The notes under the pieces: generated by a model
The model's database searches: none
The model's input: the letters and a program-made list of their open reading frames with translations, nothing else
What the model was told of the DNA's origin: nothing
Virus record (IMG/VR): IMGVR_UViG_3300025030_000267
Span: 1-37,813 of that record
Direction: 5' to 3' (one strand)
DNA from: a virus
Length of the DNA stretch: 37,813 nt
Position numbers and translations under genes: made by a program
Shown: positions 355 through 36,222 of the stretch, in pieces
Numbering within the stretch: position 1 is the stretch's first letter
How the letters are laid out: every line of letters starts with the position of its first letter

Positions 355-435
355 ATGACTCACGCCAAGACCGAGCGAGATGTCACAGCCAGGGGCTCAC
401 CGAGCTGGCTAATCTTAACGAGTGAGCATAGATGA
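355..435 (+). CDS. Possible 26-aa micro-ORF
   Basis: A strong AAGGAGG sequence at 345-351 lies just ahead of ATG 355, and the frame stays open to TGA 433-435. The spacing is only about 3-4 bases, which is short for efficient initiation. The 26-residue product has no recognisable motif. It fills the gap between two better-supported genes. An orphan Shine-Dalgarno site in a gene-free stretch is the only real support, so this is a weak call. Confidence 0.25.
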   Translation: MTHAKTERDVTARGSPSWLILTSEHR

Positions 436-446
436 AAGGACGCCAC

Positions 447-1064
447 ATGAAGAAAGCAATCCTCTTTACCGCAGTCGTGCTGCTCGCCGGCACCGTGTTC
501 AATGGCACGGCCATCGCTGGCGGACCAGGTTCCCTCACCATCGTAGTTGAGACTTCGCCCCGTGACCGGGATGTGCGCTTCCACTACGACACCAGCGAAT
601 CCCTCGGAGCCAGCTCAGTACCAGGCTTCACCCTCACGGACGATGACCGGCGTGATGCGCGGCGTAAGTTCGAAGAGCTGAGCGGCGGGCGCTACCGCAT
701 TACCCAGGACACCCCTTCAGGTTGGAACCTGGATGACGTAAACTGTGACGGTGACAAAGACACCGACATCGACATCGACGGCGAGCGCTTGACTATCACC
801 CTGGATGGTGCAGAGAACATCACCTGCACGTTCTACAACACGAAGGATGAACCAACCCCGACTCCCACTGTGGTCCCTGTTAGCACTCCAGTGCCTCCTG
901 CTCCTACTCGTGAGCCTACTGTTCCTTGTGTCATTGGCTCTGAGGTCGTTGTTCTAGTGGGGCTGCGCTGCCCACAGCCCACACCCACGGCAACGGCGAC
1001 GCCAGTTGTGCAGGTGGCCCAGATACGCCCTCCAGCCACAGGTGACGCGGGACTACTCCCATAG
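447..1064 (+). CDS. Secreted prealbumin-fold protein with truncated PPATG tail
   Basis: ATG 447 is preferred over 432 because GAAAGGA (435-440) sits correctly before it. The 205-aa product opens with a Lys-rich signal peptide and hydrophobic core (about residues 2-24, cleavage near TAIAG). A single domain (about 28-131) follows: it begins GSLTIVVET and ends ITCTFYNT, the pattern of prealbumin-like (SpaA/SdrD B-type) beta domains of bacterial surface proteins. A Thr/Pro-rich stalk follows (about 135-190). The protein ends PPATGDAGLLP, which resembles the sorting-motif region of Chloroflexota and actinobacterial wall proteins but lacks the usual following membrane helix and basic tail. It should therefore be released or held by another means. 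A role in surface display or adhesion is inference; the fold call is from sequence pattern only. Confidence 0.75.
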   Translation: MKKAILFTAVVLLAGTVFNGTAIAGGPGSLTIVVETSPRDRDVRFHYDTSESLGASSVPGFTLTDDDRRDARRKFEELSGGRYRITQDTPSGWNLDDVNCDGDKDTDIDIDGERLTITLDGAENITCTFYNTKDEPTPTPTVVPVSTPVPPAPTREPTVPCVIGSEVVVLVGLRCPQPTPTATATPVVQVAQIRPPATGDAGLLP

Positions 1065-5622: not shown

Positions 5623-5903
5623 ACACTGCCACTCAAGAGTTGGTCGTCAACAAGGCAGGCCAAGAGCGCATACGCAGGACAGCAGTATGCTCGACTCACG
5701 ACCAGCGCAGCCACCAGTTCGTAGGCCCTGTCGCGCTCGGCTGGATGTTCGAATGTAGCGAGAACAGTGTCCACATGCGTCACTACTTCGTTGTTCACCC
5801 ACCCAAGGACGCGCCCAGGACCGAGGCTGATATCGTCTTGTGGCTGGAGAGCAAACGCCAAGCTCGCATTAATAGTAAGGAAGTGAGGAAGCGCGGTGCC
5901 TGA
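5619..5903 (+). CDS. Hypothetical protein (94 aa)
   Basis: The start overlaps the previous stop (ATGA). The product is soluble and basic. The central part has aromatic and His residues (ALGWMFECSENSVHMRHYFVVH) and the C terminus is a charged helix (ADIVLWLESKRQARINSKEVRKRG). I do not recognise the family. The tail overlaps the next GTG start by eight bases, with GAGG at 5885-5888 serving that next gene. Confidence 0.65.
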   Translation: MNTATQELVVNKAGQERIRRTAVCSTHDQRSHQFVGPVALGWMFECSENSVHMRHYFVVHPPKDAPRTEADIVLWLESKRQARINSKEVRKRGA

Positions 5904-6072
5904 AATAGTAACTGATTGGTGTACGGTCTGTGCATATCCTAAGCCTACAAGCTGCGTAGTCTTCAATGACGAGCACGTTTGTATCGCCTGCATCCAGGAT
6001 GCATGTGAGCTACTCGGCATCTCCCTTTCTGTGCCAGACGAGCCAGAAGAAGCCGAACTCGTAGAAGCATGA
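5896..6072 (+). CDS. Zinc-knuckle protein (58 aa, GTG start)
   Basis: GTG 5896 follows GTGAGGAAG with good spacing and lies inside the end of the previous gene. The product has C9-x2-C12 and C29-x2-C32 (plus C20), a small zinc ribbon, then an acidic tail (PDEPEEAELVEA). Its TGA overlaps the next ATG (ATGA 6069-6072). It may act as a DNA- or protein-binding accessory. It is one of more than ten tiny cysteine-knuckle proteins in this window. Confidence 0.7.
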   Translation: MPEIVTDWCTVCAYPKPTSCVVFNDEHVCIACIQDACELLGISLSVPDEPEEAELVEA

Positions 6073-6308
6073 GCTGCGCCCATCATGTTGCCACTCAGAT
6101 GATTCAGCGCAGGCTTTCCATATGGCAACCCGCTTCATGGACCCAGGACGGAAAGTTCGTCAAGTACATAGGTCAACCAGTCCGGAAGTGGCAATATCTA
6201 AACTCTTGTGAACACTGGGTTTGGGAAGATGCCAATCACTGTGGTGAATGTGGCAGTATTTGTGATGTCCAAGGCGGGCCACCTCATTTGAGAGGAAAGA
6301 ATAATTGA
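6069..6308 (+). CDS. Hypothetical Cys/His-containing protein (79 aa)
   Basis: It is coupled to the upstream gene by ATGA. It opens MSCAHH, like the MNCAHH of the next gene, and has a CEHWVWEDANHCGECGSIC segment in the second half that could form a zinc site. The remainder is Trp-rich and basic. The shared N-terminal CAHH suggests local duplication or a common metal-binding start. No function can be given. Confidence 0.6.
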   Translation: MSCAHHVATQMIQRRLSIWQPASWTQDGKFVKYIGQPVRKWQYLNSCEHWVWEDANHCGECGSICDVQGGPPHLRGKNN

Positions 6309-6505
6309 CCACTCATATGAACTGCGCCCATCATTGGGTACTCGCCACACCCGCTGGCCCCATGGTTCATGGCGTCTGTGTGCTCTGTGGAGCTGAGCGC
6401 GATTACCCTACGACCATGGACAGCGACGACTGGAAGGATGTGCGTAACAAGGGCCGTGCTGCCGCGAAGTTGGCAAGAGAGCGCAAGCAATTCGAGTTGG
6501 GCTAG
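6305..6505 (+). CDS. Zinc-ribbon protein of the HHW...CxxCG type (66 aa)
   Basis: TTG 6305 overlaps the previous stop (TTGA); ATG 6317 is an alternative start. Ligand candidates are C7 with H9/H10 (NCAHHW) and C25-x2-C28 (VCVLCGAERDY), the pattern of small phage and actinobacterial zinc proteins. The C terminus is a basic helix (NKGRAAAKLARERKQF). It ends the chain of coupled small genes. Six bases after its stop the first hairpin of the HNH region begins. Confidence 0.7.
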   Translation: MTTHMNCAHHWVLATPAGPMVHGVCVLCGAERDYPTTMDSDDWKDVRNKGRAAAKLARERKQFELG

Positions 6506-6510
6506 AGCGC

Positions 6511-6528
6511 CTGGAACCCAGGTTCCAG
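6511..6528. other. 8-bp hairpin after the small-gene operon
   Basis: CTGGAACC (6511-6518) and GGTTCCAG (6521-6528) are perfect complements separated by two bases. No U-tract follows, so it is not a classical terminator. It lies directly upstream of GATATAGTC (6542-6550) and of the HNH cassette. Confidence 0.6.
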
Positions 6529-6555
6529 ACCTCCTGGATGTGATATAGTCAGCAA

Positions 6556-6572
6556 GTCGAGGGTGGCTCGAC
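6556..6572. other. 6-bp hairpin abutting the HNH inverted repeat
   Basis: GTCGAG (6556-6561) and CTCGAC (6567-6572) pair around a GGTGG loop. The left arm of the 13-bp inverted repeat begins at the very next base, so in RNA the two stems could stack. Confidence 0.65.
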
Positions 6573-7097
6573 GGAACGGAAGGGGCTGCCAAGCGGTGGC
6601 CTCTTCGCTTATAGAAAGGGACAGAGTGAACACAAGCAGAATATCGAGATCGCAACGGTTCACAGTGCTCTTCAGGGACAAGTTCACCTGCCAGTATTGT
6701 GGACGTAAGGCACCAGATGTCATATTGCAGATTGACCACAAGGTCCCGCATCTCCTCGGAGGCGCAGATAGACTGGAGAACCTAGTCACCGCCTGTGAGG
6801 ACTGCAATCAAGGCAAGGGCACACTGGAGATAATCGCGGACCCGCCGCCGGCTTATGTTACGCCGGTAAGTCTGACACCTGAGCAACTAGAGCGCCTTGA
6901 AGCTGTACCCAGCAGCACTGTTTCAACTGAAGAAGTCATGCGCCTGCGCACTGTAAGTGGGTCATGGACTCGCAAGACACTGGAATCATGGGACGTGCCA
7001 TGGCCACCGCCGCGAGGATGGAAGGCCAAGCTTACTGGTGAGATGGACCCGCCAAGCGAAGCTGTGCCATAGGCTTTGCGCAGTCCCCTTCCGTTCC
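6573..7097. repeat. 13-bp perfect inverted repeat enclosing the HNH gene
   Basis: GGAACGGAAGGGG (6573-6585) is exactly complementary to CCCCTTCCGTTCC (7085-7097). The arms lie 40 bases before the HNH start and 12 bases after its stop. They could be the ends of a mobile cassette or a long-range RNA stem that closes the endonuclease ORF in a loop, as in ribozyme introns that carry ORFs. Confidence 0.75.
6626..7072 (+). CDS. HNH endonuclease
   Basis: GTG 6626 is preferred over GTG 6563 because GAAAGGG (6614-6620) lies just before it, while 6563 falls inside a hairpin. The 148-aa product has a full HNH core: C22-x2-C25, D37-H38, N52 (ENL), C57-x2-C60 followed by N61. The two CxxC pairs bind a structural zinc, D37/H38 and N52 are catalytic. 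The C-terminal third (about 85-148) is basic and Trp/Pro-rich and may contact DNA. It lies in the convergence zone between plus and minus operons and is enclosed by a 13-bp inverted repeat, which suggests a homing-type mobile gene. A packaging-associated HNH is less likely because the terminases are 25 kb away. Confidence 0.85.
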   Translation: MNTSRISRSQRFTVLFRDKFTCQYCGRKAPDVILQIDHKVPHLLGGADRLENLVTACEDCNQGKGTLEIIADPPPAYVTPVSLTPEQLERLEAVPSSTVSTEEVMRLRTVSGSWTRKTLESWDVPWPPPRGWKAKLTGEMDPPSEAVP

Positions 7098-7118
7098 TTC
7101 CTGGTGGGGGGTCCGACT

Positions 7119-7132
7119 GCGGCGTTAGCCGC
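7119..7132. terminator. GC hairpin in the convergent gap
   Basis: GCGGC (7119-7123) pairs with GCCGC (7128-7132) around GTTA. It lies between the HNH gene and the stop of the holin gene on the other strand, where a terminator is expected. There is no U-tract on either side, so the call is weak. Confidence 0.3.
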
Positions 7133-7140
7133 GCGAAGAG

Positions 7141-7314
7141 CTAAGTTGACTGTCCACTCTTGAACAGGAACGCTGTGAGGGTGAGGAAGTTGCCGATGCA
7201 CATCATGATCACGGCAACCTGGTCACCGGTGAAGCTGACGACGCCGGCTATCTCCAGCACGGGGAACACGCTCTGTACGAAGGCGATGATGGCGGCTCTT
7301 AGTTTGTCATTCAT
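7141..7314 (-). CDS. Holin-like membrane protein (57 aa)
   Basis: I chose ATG 7314 because it overlaps the amidase stop (ATGA) and has GGAG upstream. The product has two hydrophobic segments, about residues 8-25 (IIAFVQSVFPVLEIAGVV) and 30-50 (VAVIMMCIGNFLTLTAFLF), with a charged N terminus and a short polar C terminus. Size, topology and position directly after an amidase gene fit a phage holin that opens the membrane for the endolysin. It is the last gene of the late operon. Confidence 0.7.
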   Translation of the reverse strand: MNDKLRAAIIAFVQSVFPVLEIAGVVSFTGDQVAVIMMCIGNFLTLTAFLFKSGQST

Positions 7315-7934
7315 CCGTTTGCTCTCCTGTTCCAGTCTGCAATGATGGCCCTCTGCCAATCTACGAGGTCGGCCAGGTTCCAGCCTTGAGTGAGAAAGTG
7401 GCCAAGGTCTATTACGGTCTTGAGCTCTTCGAGTATGGATGATTCCATGGGCGCTGTGAGCCCATTGAGTAGCCTGTTCCAGTCGAAGAGGGCACCTGGG
7501 TCACTCTTACCTACGCGCTTGCCTTGGGGGGTCTCCTGGTGGCCTATGAAGCCGTGCATGAAGTGTTGTATTGGTACGCCAAAGTCCTCGACGTAGCCTC
7601 TGCACACGGCGACCAGGGCGTCCATCTGCGCATCCGTGAAGCCGTCGCTCTCTACGCCCTGTTCAAGCTCTATGCCCCAGTGAGTGGCGTTGTGCTCACC
7701 CGCGTGCCAGGCCACAAGGTCGTCGGCTACTATGCGTGCCTTGGTGCCATCGCGCCCAATGACCCAGTGCGAGCTGACCTGAGCGGCTGGGTTCTTGAAC
7801 CAGTTGAGCGCGCCCTCGAACTCACTGGGGTTCATAGAGACGCTACTGCGTGTGGAGTGAATAACTACGCCCTGCCCACTGGGCTTCATGTGAGAGAAAT
7901 GGGGTGTAGTGCTTACGACGTCAGGGGTTATCAC
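7311..7934 (-). CDS. N-acetylmuramoyl-L-alanine amidase (endolysin)
   Basis: The 207-aa product is an Amidase_2/PGRP-type zinc amidase. Zinc ligands are visible as H26 (VVIHST), H132 (IGHQE) and D145 in the KSDPG motif, with K143 as the usual catalytic neighbour. The AWHAGEHN segment (76-82) is also typical. The enzyme cleaves the bond between muramic acid and L-Ala in peptidoglycan at lysis. The C-terminal part (about 160-207) is helical and may bind the wall. GTG 7934 overlaps the previous stop (GTGA). It lies between a membrane/coiled-coil protein and a holin, a standard lysis cassette. Confidence 0.9.
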   Translation of the reverse strand: MITPDVVSTTPHFSHMKPSGQGVVIHSTRSSVSMNPSEFEGALNWFKNPAAQVSSHWVIGRDGTKARIVADDLVAWHAGEHNATHWGIELEQGVESDGFTDAQMDALVAVCRGYVEDFGVPIQHFMHGFIGHQETPQGKRVGKSDPGALFDWNRLLNGLTAPMESSILEELKTVIDLGHFLTQGWNLADLVDWQRAIIADWNRRANG

Positions 7935-8254
7935 GTGGAAATCTCCTCTGGTAAGCCTAGTTTGCCCTCGATGCGAGCTAGGCGTTGGGCGATAACTGAG
8001 CGCGCATTTACAGCTTCAGTGTAATGGGCCTCCACCTTGTCGCTCAGTGCATTCTGGGCAGAGTCGTGTCTTGCGAGCTCGGCGCGCAGCGTGCCTGCGC
8101 GTGGGTCGCTCTCTGCGCCAATGGACATTTCCACGCGCTCGACAGCGGCGAGTACATGGGCAACCTTGCGCACGATGTAGTAGACACCGCCGATGAATGA
8201 CGCTGCAAGGGTGAGCACTTCAATGACCACTCGCACAATCTCAAGGTCTGTCAT
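7931..8254 (-). CDS. Lysis-cassette membrane protein with coiled coil (107 aa)
   Basis: A single N-terminal membrane helix (about residues 7-32, VVIEVLTLAASFIGGVYYIV) is followed by a charged helical region (about 35-100) rich in heptad-like Leu/Val/Ala. This topology occurs in alternative holins and in spanin-like or XhlA-type lysis proteins. The start overlaps the large tail gene (ATGA) and the end overlaps the amidase start. The lysis role rests on topology and position only. Confidence 0.65.
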   Translation of the reverse strand: MTDLEIVRVVIEVLTLAASFIGGVYYIVRKVAHVLAAVERVEMSIGAESDPRAGTLRAELARHDSAQNALSDKVEAHYTEAVNARSVIAQRLARIEGKLGLPEEIST

Positions 8255-11200
8255 GCGGTTGCTCCCGGTACAACGCGGAATGTAATCACGGCACTCTCTA
8301 TCTCCTGCCAGTCACTCAACGTGGTTGAGCTACGTGGCTTAAACTTGATCTGCGTGCGCTCAGGGAGCCAGGCCATGGGCTTATCGTACCCTGCGCCCAG
8401 CAATCGCTGCACGTTCTTCGTGTTCTGCAAGGTCGCAAGTCGGCTAAGGATGTTCTGCAAGGGCTCGTGCTGTTGGTCAGCGGGCAGAACGAAGCTGACT
8501 TCTTCGTAGGCCGGCCACTGGCTAACGAAGGTGAAGAGCACGGGTAGCAGGTTAGGCGTCTCAGCGCTTGCTGCCTCATGGTCGCCTATAAGCCTGATGC
8601 AGAGCGTGTCGAAGGTCACGCCGGGGTCAAGGCTGGTCTTGATGGTGGAGTCCACAAACGTTTCAGCTACCGCGTTGAAGGTGATGTCTACTTCGGCGCT
8701 GGTGATGGCGGTGTCGCGCCCGGTGTCCACGAGCACACGCAGGGAGCCGTAGCTCGTGTCGTCGTCTATCCGTAGTGACTGGCACGTCACCTGGGTTAAC
8801 GTCTTGAGCATCTCTGGTGGGCCACAGTCGAGCTGTACGACCTGCACATAGAGTGGCCCATCCTGTTTGACTACAGCAGTGTTGGTTAGGTGTGGGTCGT
8901 TAAAGGGGTCAGGTGGCACAAATTCACGGGTCACACTCAGTGATGTTGCGTCTACAGGTATGAAGCGATAAACAAATCCTTGCCCTGCTGGGTAAGGCGT
9001 TTCAGCCCAGTAGAGAGGTGTAATGAGATTGTAGCTTTGCGCTTTAGACTGCTGCGCCCAACTCGCGTGCCATTTGCCATCATGGTAGAGCCAGCGCTGA
9101 GGATCGAGCCCGCAAGTGTCTACGATGAGCACATCGTTAACTGCGAACATCTGGGTAATCTTGGTTGCGACTGAACCACTTGATGGATGGTTCACAACTG
9201 CAGGAAAGCCTAAGTCTCTGGATAAGCCGTCAGAGCCAACAATCACAACTTGATTGTAGTTGTTGGATTTGCCTCCACCAGCTACGGCGACGCCACCAAG
9301 GTACGGGCAGGCAAGTCCTGCATAGCTTAGTCCAGTTTCTGGGTAGCTGATGGAGCCCACTCCTACGCTGGCGATGTCAAAGTAGGCAAGTACGCGCTTT
9401 TCAGTGATGGCCGTGGGGTCGTTAGTGCGCTCGGGCACGATGCCTACGATGCGATGGGAGTTGTTGGGTAGGGTAAAGAATGGCCCGCCGCCAGTGGGAA
9501 AGCTCAGCACACTCAGCGGCATGTACCAATAGACCGTGATGCTGATGTGGTCGAAGGTCAGCGCGTTCGCGTCGAGGTTGGCTTGCACGATGAGGCCGAA
9601 TCCTGGGTTGTTGATGTTCGCTGCCGTCCATGTCGTGCCCCATACGTCGGTGGCAGAGCCGTAGCTTACGGACTCGTCGGTAGTGCTGTACTCTAGATTG
9701 TTCGATTGCTGCTTGTTGTCGCCCACGGCGGTGAACGCCTGCATGAGCTGGATTGTCGAATCGTCCGCGTTGCCAGCGGCGTTACTCTCGGCTCGCTCTA
9801 CGGTGGCGACGATGCCGCTGATGATGGCGTTGCGTGGCAGGCTAAACCCGTAGCCGTAGGTCCATATTTGCGTAGTCACGTCATCTGCGCCCGCGCCCGT
9901 TTGCCAGGTGGCGGTCGTGTCCGCGTCATCACTGGCGGTGATGTTGCTCAGGCTGACGAAGTATTCGCTTTGGGCTGTACGCTGTGTGTAGTTACCCACG
10001 GATTTGGTGACAGACTGAAGAGTAAGGCCGCGCTGATACCAGACTGTGAGCGCGATGGCGTCTACACTTATTGTGGCATTGCCGCCCGTTGCACCTGATT
10101 TCTCGAAGGCCACACCTACACCAAAGTCAGCATCGTTGACGATGGTGGGAGTAAGCGCCTCGCCCCACATTGAAGTCTGTCCACCAAATACACTAGCTTG
10201 CACGACATCTGTAATAGGCGTCACGTCTGGCGGTGAGCCTATAGCTTGATCCTCACCGAAGAGTGCTGCACTGGCATTGAACAGGCGCACGCTTTTGTAG
10301 TTCATATCGGCAAGGTTGCCGGCAGCGGGAGTATCTGACTTGGCAAACACCATGCACTCAACACCCACTACAAGGTCAGTAGACGCCAATGCGAAGCCAA
10401 ACGTGTCGGCGTAGAGATAATTGCTAACTTCGTTGTCATCCAGTAGCACGGTGGCGAAGCTGCCATCTAGTCCGCTGTTGATGTTCGTAGGGTTAGACCA
10501 GGCAATGGTGCCGATGCCTGTATTGTTCGCGCCCACGGTGGCGAAGGTCTGGTTAGTCGCGTAAGTCGTACTGGTGGGATTAACGCTCGTGCTCAGGTCA
10601 AAGGGCGTGGGCATCGTGAGTAGGGCGTCAGTGTCGTAGACGTAGCCCACCATGTTGATGCCGCTAAACGTGCCGATAAGCACATTGATACTCAGGTCAC
10701 GAATGTAGAGTAGACCCCAGCATGAATCGCCACTGGTGTAGGTGAATATCTGCGTCCAGGTGATACTGTTAGCCGTGGGGTCAGTTGTGCCGCGCACACC
10801 ATCAGTCGTGCCGTCCATCGCGCCGATGGTTAGGCAGCGCGTGGAGTTGAACTTACAGTCACCTATCGCGCCCACATTATCAGTGATGTTGTCGTTTGTT
10901 GAAGGAACAATGAGCACGGGGCTAGACGTGCTCGTGTCTTTGACTAGGTAAGGGCCAAGACAAGCATACCAGCGCTGATTGTAGTTAATGCCATGGACTC
11001 GCTTGTTAGCGGCGTTGTATCCACTAAAGTCAGCAGAGATGAGCGTAGTCTGATTGGTCGCTTTATAGGGCAATGCAGCAACTCCTGGCACATGACACTG
11101 AATGCCCTCGTTGTACCAGACGTGATGTTTATCCTTGCGCCAGTCGCCAATCGTAGCTGAGTCCCACAGGCCGCCACTGAGGTCGTCAATAACCAGGGTG

Positions 11201-34916: not shown

Positions 34917-35077
34917 TTCGCGCCGTACCAGTGTTTACGCCACTTGAGCCGCGAATCTGGCGCAGGGAGCTGCCCCTCCAGGTAAGCTGAGCGCTCGGCC
35001 AAACAGGCGCAGATTAGCACCCCGCACGACGGGCAAGGACGTAACTCGGAGCCGCAGACTTCACAAGTGAATACCAT
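34913..35077 (-). CDS. Double zinc-ribbon protein (54 aa)
   Basis: ATG 35077 opens a frame with C5-x2-C8 (TCEVCG), C15-x2-C18 (PCPSCG) and C23-x-C25 (ICAC), six cysteines in 21 residues. The C terminus is basic (SRLKWRKHWYGAK). It is the first gene after the palindrome-rich gap, so its transcript probably starts there or continues from the small terminase. No clear ribosome-binding site is seen. Confidence 0.65.
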   Translation of the reverse strand: MVFTCEVCGSELRPCPSCGVLICACLAERSAYLEGQLPAPDSRLKWRKHWYGAK

Positions 35078-35128
35078 TATGTCAACTAACCTCCAGGATT
35101 TTGAGTGGGAAAGTACCAGAAGTACGAG

Positions 35129-35340
35129 TTATATATATATATACTATATACCTAAGAGAGAGGGTGGCTAACGTTTATAGTTAGCATGGTGGGACTGCGC
35201 CGCTGGGCGCGCGCTACAGTGTATAGATAGAATCTATAGCTTAACGTGATAGGCATAGACGACAATATCGCCACATTCTGAAAACGACGTCGTGTAGTAC
35301 TACACACAAGGACCCTATGTAGTAGTTAACGTGTTAACTA
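35129..35340. promoter_or_regulatory. Palindrome-rich AT/GC intergenic region (origin or operator candidate)
   Basis: A 260-base gap holds a TA tract (35129-35150) and these inverted repeats: GCTAAC 35167-35172 with GTTAGC 35180-35185; GCGCC 35197-35201 with GGCGC 35206-35210; TATAGAT 35222-35228 with ATCTATA 35232-35238; the perfect palindromes ACGACGTCGT (35284-35293) and GTGTAGTACTACAC (35292-35305); TAGTTAAC 35323-35330 with GTTAACTA 35333-35340, the last arm covering the small-terminase stop. No gene is seen in it. Confidence 0.6.
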
Positions 35341-35961: not shown

Positions 35962-36003
35962 ACGAGTACTGGACGGTTAGTTAGCAGCAAGGGAGTAAGC
36001 ACA

Positions 36004-36222
36004 GTGGAGATCAACGGAACCTACTTCAGCAACGCGGATCAGGCAGAGCTAGCCAACCTTTACCATCTGGCGCGCACTGCGCTGGCTGGACTCGACCACG
36101 TTCCCACGCGGCACGAACGTCTCATCTGGGCTTCAGACGCATTCAGTAAAGCCAATGGCGGCGCTGAAGCCGGATACCCTTCGATTCGCTGCTATAAAGC
36201 AATCACGCGCGTTCTGGCCTAG
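36004..36222 (+). CDS. Small early protein (72 aa, GTG start)
   Basis: GTG 36004 follows AAGGGAG with good spacing and is the first gene after the strong promoter. The product is helical and mostly neutral (YFSNADQAELANLYHLARTALAGLDHV), followed by a short basic/aromatic part. No family is recognised. As first gene of the early operon it may act against the host or regulate transcription, but this is inference. Confidence 0.65.
   Translation: MEINGTYFSNADQAELANLYHLARTALAGLDHVPTRHERLIWASDAFSKANGGAEAGYPSIRCYKAITRVLA

Follow-up and report, generated by a model that had tools for sequence, protein, structure and literature searches.

An HNH gene in a viral genome lies between inverted repeats that change in pairs and enclose an unrelated gene in a relative

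The HNH gene and its flanking arms

We analyzed a 37,813-nucleotide stretch of viral DNA, IMG/VR record IMGVR_UViG_3300025030_000267 (the window), in which an earlier note made from the sequence alone had pointed to an HNH endonuclease gene enclosed by a 13-bp inverted repeat. The open reading frame (ORF) encodes 148 amino acids and has a GTG start behind the Shine-Dalgarno sequence AGAAAGGGA. Its product matches Pfam HNH (E = 2e-14) and HNH_5 (1e-11), as well as PHROG HNH families, and the first of these matches gives it the catalytic HNH motif of a free-standing HNH homing endonuclease gene. The locus is intergenic. Small unrelated plus-strand ORFs are on its left and a minus-strand lysis/tail block is on its right, with no gene interrupted. 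The two arms, GGAACGGAAGGGG and CCCCTTCCGTTCC, are exact reverse complements and are separated from the ORF by 40 bases on its 5' side and 12 bases on its 3' side, in the zone where the two transcription directions meet, all as the earlier note had described. Coordinates of the features at the locus are collected in Table 1.

The HNH protein has a C-terminal motif, SWTRKTLESWDVPWPPPRGWKAKL (window 6950-7040), that recurs in small phage ORFs without an HNH domain (L005, 9884-10171; L006, 411-683). It might be an exchangeable C-terminal module.

Table 1. Features at the HNH locus, in window coordinates. G001 is the related phage contig described in the text.
Feature	Position	Strand	Evidence
Perfect palindrome CTGGAACC-CA-GGTTCCAG, 8-bp arms, candidate operator	6511..6528	.	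Immediately before the promoter-like element; no counterpart in the aligned G001 sequence
5' conserved noncoding island (promoter-like element, hairpin, left arm)	6539..6587	+	40 of 49 bases identical to G001 8116-8164, no gaps
Extended -10 promoter-like element TGaTATAGT	6541..6549	+	Sole window match to TGnTA[TA]A[AG]T; TGgTAAAGT in G001, at 8118
P1 hairpin GTCGAG-ggtgg-CTCGAC, predicted 5' end of the RNA	6556..6572	+	One double compensatory change versus G001
P2 left arm GGAACGGAAGGGG	6573..6585	+	Perfect complement of right arm; double changes at 3 of 13 pairs in G001, single changes at 0
Local alternative hairpin GAAGGGGCUGCC-AAGC-GGUGGCCUCUUC, sharing the left arm	6579..6606	+	RNAfold of the 5' leader; imperfect counterpart in G001
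Shine-Dalgarno sequence AGAAAGGGA of the HNH ORF	6613..6621	+	Sequence; aligned with GAAAGG in the G001 leader
HNH endonuclease ORF, exchangeable content	6626..7072	+	Pfam, PHROG; dissimilar to the G001 ORF
3' conserved noncoding island (right arm, downstream hairpins)	7078..7148	+	57 of 71 bases identical to G001 8571-8641
P2 right arm CCCCTTCCGTTCC	7085..7097	+	Perfect complement of left arm
P3, small predicted hairpin UUCCU.....GGGG (weak)	7099..7111	+	RNAalifold; one single-sided change, no double change
P4 hairpin GCGGC-GTTA-GCCGC, no T run, candidate terminator or barrier	7119..7132	+	Invariant in both phages

Gene exchange and paired changes in a related phage

When viral contigs were scanned with the 1033-amino-acid protein of the adjoining minus-strand tail block, the sole distinct relative was IMGVR_UViG_3300031237_000011 (G001; loci L014 and L019-L021), whose tail protein is 72% identical to that of the window. 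The 43-kb G001 contig is collinear with the window. Both noncoding islands that flank the HNH gene are kept at the homologous convergent junction, and the neighboring small ORFs on either side are without clear homology. The slot between the islands of G001 holds a 91-amino-acid ORF in place of the HNH gene. This ORF does not resemble the HNH protein and had no match in Pfam, PHROGs, or cultured phages. On the inner side of the left arm, homology between the two contigs stops within a few tens of bases; on the inner side of the right arm, it stops after 7 bases. G001 retains both arms and the sequence outside them although the ORF that they enclose is unrelated, and from these alignments we assign the arms to a phage backbone site and not to the HNH gene.

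The earlier note had offered the arms as the ends of a transposable or homing cassette, or as a long RNA stem from which the ORF loops out, the arrangement of homing genes encoded in introns. A mobile HNH element with terminal inverted repeats, or the boundaries of a homing cassette, would fit with arms that closely flank the HNH ORF, with the frequent mobility of phage HNH genes, and with the loss of homology shortly inside both arms. However, the arms did not travel with the HNH gene, and the promoter-like element, P1, and P4 outside or beside them are also kept in G001 around a different gene. The bases bordering the arm pair on the outside, CTCGAC on the left and TTCCTG on the right, share no direct repeat that would mark a target-site duplication, and the other relatives of the HNH protein or its C-terminal motif that we found (L003 and L005-L008) have no comparable arms in their flanks. 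With the arms still present where the gene has been replaced, transposable ends are for practical purposes excluded, and we consider a mobile HNH element very unlikely. The word "cassette" applies only if it means a backbone slot whose content can be exchanged. The intron suggestion also failed. The whole window had no gathering-level Rfam match, including to the Intron_gpI catalytic core, and with relaxed filters, 6500-7200 and the G001 locus gave only chance-level matches, to other families. A group I intron was therefore rejected on the lack of Rfam support and the intergenic context.

The RNA stem fared differently. The G001 arms, GAAACGGGAGAGG (8150-8162) and CCTCTCCCGTTTC (8578-8590), are again a perfect 13-bp complement. 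They differ from the window arms at three matching positions (G-C to A-U, A-U to G-C, and G-C to A-U). All three differences are double changes, which is what the earlier note had proposed looking for, and all three are transitions, as expected if they passed through G-U pairs. Thus, 13 of 13 pairs between segments flanking the ORF are formed in both phages and have been kept by compensatory change, in a comparison of two genomes. If the arms had changed independently, the right arm would have regained exact complementarity with a probability of about 2e-4. A fourth paired change is in the P1 hairpin, which reads GCCGAG-ggtgg-CTCGGC in G001. Together, 28 of the 28 proposed pairs are formed in both sequences, with four double changes; when partners were slid by 1 to 3 columns, 45 to 55% were paired and there were no double changes. 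A letter-shuffling control gave 33 of 500, although with two sequences it has little power. The consensus fold of the joined islands reached -54 kcal/mol, compared with -31 +- 4 kcal/mol for column shuffles, and was matched by none of 300 and none of 500. Matched arms pair at -25.7 and -23.6 kcal/mol, and mixed window/G001 arms pair at -15.3 and -12.9 kcal/mol.

These changes, rather than the length of the repeat, are why we do not attribute it to chance. The earlier note had called 13 perfect pairs hard to explain by chance, which is too strong on length: in first-order shuffles, perfect 13-bp pairs within 600 bases occurred at a mean of 0.4 per shuffled window, with at least one in 7 of 30 shuffles. 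The arm pair is the longest perfect inverted repeat in the window with arms 100 to 1000 bases apart, and its homologue is independently the longest of that spacing in G001. Homologous blocks contain 25 testable window repeats of at least 10 bp, and the arm pair is the only one conserved in G001. A chance repeat with accidental parallel changes has in its favor the expectation of 0.4 per window and a comparison of two genomes only, but given the joint conservation with three paired changes and its uniqueness among 25 repeats, it is the least probable explanation that we considered.

Searches for further relatives did not extend the comparison. A DNA search of cultured phages with 6000-8000 and with each island found no real match, and protein searches of cultured phages with the 1991-2623 protein and with the 434- and 646-amino-acid minus-strand proteins found none. 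A terminase search reached only distant cultured phages. Pattern scans of viral contigs (P4, and P1 plus the left arm) returned only G001 and IMGVR_UViG_3300025015_000075, which is the window's own phage and identical in the overlap. The P4 pattern had three matches in genome contigs (Solirubrobacterales, Oxalobacteraceae, and Streptomyces); none had arms nearby, and they were taken as chance. No genome with an empty site in place of the HNH gene was recovered, the slot in G001 being occupied by its own ORF.

The predicted transcript and other features

The most probable reading, at roughly 0.55, is a one-gene transcription unit in which an extended -10 element, a 5' hairpin, the left arm, a Shine-Dalgarno sequence, an exchangeable ORF, and the right arm follow one another, and the ends of the mRNA pair. 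RNA polymerase would start at about 6556, seven bases downstream of the -10 element, which would make P1 the first element of the RNA and the left arm the next. While only the leader has been made, the left arm might be folded into the local alternative hairpin. The right arm would be made just after the stop codon and could then pair with the left arm over 13 bases, closing the mRNA into a loop that carries whichever ORF is in the slot, the HNH nuclease in the window or the unrelated 91-amino-acid protein in G001. In the full-length predicted window transcript, the two arms pair with a probability of 0.95 to 1.0. Downstream of the arm, P4 is identical in both phages and so gives no covariation evidence, and no consensus intrinsic terminator was found.

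Several observations weigh against this reading. Folding is equally significant for the two strands, and only the orientation of the promoter-like element and the ORF points to the plus strand. Beyond the arm, the 3' island has no significant structure (z = -0.7). The element is known from only two distinct genomes in the viral-contig scans. In the predicted G001 transcript, the first copy of the left arm is locked in a local hairpin, and it is a second copy that pairs. Finally, the Shine-Dalgarno sequence is predicted to be sequestered in the window but not in G001. In addition, an outer helix between the P1 loop (GGGTGG) and the 3' end (CCACTC / CTACCC) is an alternative consensus fold that is inseparable from P1 with two sequences.

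The second copy in G001 comes from a diverged tandem duplication within the leader (8150-8283), so that there are two left-arm copies with 12 identical bases. It is at 8216-8227, matches at 12 of 13 positions, has the left-arm orientation and the G001-specific letters, and is about as far from the G001 Shine-Dalgarno sequence as the window arm is from its own. In the predicted transcript, the right arm pairs with this copy, the nearer to the Shine-Dalgarno sequence, at 0.97 to 1.0 over 12 bases. G001 therefore has three arm-like sites, the third within what appears to be a local leader duplication; the window has one two-mismatch match besides its two arms (0.55 expected).

This third site bears on a different explanation, in which the arms act as DNA. 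They could be two inverted sites for one phage protein (a repressor, a stoperator-like protein, or a recombinase), and a drift in its specificity could have changed both alike. An inverted-repeat DNA site would show the same parallel change, an extra copy in the same orientation with the G001-specific letters is what such sites might produce, and Cluster K mycobacteriophages have, upstream of start codons, inverted repeats that vary from one subcluster to another (ESAS; PMC3203893). However, neither genome has further sites elsewhere, P1 covaries too but in a different sequence, and all of the arm changes are transitions. We regard DNA-level sites as improbable on balance, though the strongest of the competing explanations.

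It is also conceivable that the RNA itself is the product, a ribozyme or other structured noncoding RNA with unrelated ORFs inserted in a loop. Two conserved noncoding islands that pair across a variable ORF would suit this explanation, as would the covariation of P1 and P2 and the approximately 130 nucleotides that are left once the ORF is omitted. Nevertheless, the RNA has no Rfam match, there is no significant structure beyond the arms, and in both phages the leader keeps a Shine-Dalgarno sequence at roughly the same distance from a copy of the arm, as would suit an mRNA. We consider this explanation unlikely.

If the mRNA ends do pair, the pairing might control translation or decay. It does not cover the translation start region, because the left arm ends 27 bases before the Shine-Dalgarno sequence, and the difference in predicted Shine-Dalgarno accessibility between the two phages means that the folds suggest no common translational effect. 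For both of these reasons, control of mRNA decay would be at least as likely as control of initiation.

Three other features are away from the locus. An AT-rich noncoding block, TATATATATATATACTATATACC ... GAGGGTGGCTAACGTTTATAGTTAGC, is conserved between window 35054-35177 and G001 35983-36104. It is in an ORF-poor region near the end of the record and is possibly a main promoter region or origin. The sequence GTGAGGAAGCGCGGTGCCTGA is at a junction in the window (5862-5904), where the end of one ORF (coding VRKRGA) overlaps the start of the next, and is repeated at two gene junctions in G001 (7598-7640 and 7899-7923). The 210-amino-acid ORF at window 432-1064 is in the early-gene block; its product matches the prealbumin-like SpaA_4 domain (Pfam, 3e-12), a surface-type domain that is unusual there.

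Meaning and comparison with known systems

A broader and more tentative idea, to which we give less than even odds, is that the locus is a conserved RNA gene slot. The 5' and 3' parts, owned by the phage backbone, would pair across any gene that they enclose, and unrelated proteins would come under the same structure-based control and be exchanged between phages. Few cases of end-to-end pairing in bacterial mRNAs are known, and each concerns particular genes, whereas in this locus the ends that pair appear to be owned by the site and not by the gene. If this idea is correct, then it is a route by which phages put new genes under ready-made posttranscriptional control, and covarying ends would be a simple way to find exchangeable accessory genes.

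Phage morons are single genes with their own promoter that are inserted between other genes and vary in content. The locus resembles them as a promoter-bearing single gene of variable content between others. It departs from them in that only the gene is replaced, its control sequences remaining in place, and in that the two ends pair.

The ESAS of Cluster K mycobacteriophages are 17-bp imperfect inverted repeats with spacers of 4 to 13 bp, present many times per genome and of unknown function (PMC3203893). They share with the arms a position near start codons and a sequence that differs between related phages, in their case between subclusters, whereas the window has one perfect pair that encloses a gene.

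Homing endonuclease genes of T4-like phages, including I-TevI, segB, mobE, and seg43(25) of Aeromonas phage 25, have leader hairpins (PMC2988022). As in the window, a phage endonuclease ORF is behind a stable leader hairpin, and in seg43(25) the hairpin is likewise upstream of the ribosome-binding site and leaves it uncovered. However, those hairpins are local, whereas the window arms pair across the ORF in a structure that persists without the endonuclease.

In the hok mRNA of the hok/sok system of plasmid R1, the 3' end folds back on the start region (PMC3868564). It resembles the predicted window transcript in having alternative local folds in its leader. However, we found no toxin or antisense RNA at the window locus, and the pairing is not at the start codon. 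An analogue backed by experiments is the icaR mRNA of Staphylococcus aureus, in which pairing of the 5' and 3' untranslated regions controls translation and RNase III cleavage (PMC3868564). The likeness is the pairing of these two untranslated parts. However, icaR pairs at the Shine-Dalgarno sequence itself through a short motif (UCCCCUG), whereas the window arm stops 27 bases short of it, and the pairing here, over 13 bases, is found around a different gene in each of the two phages.
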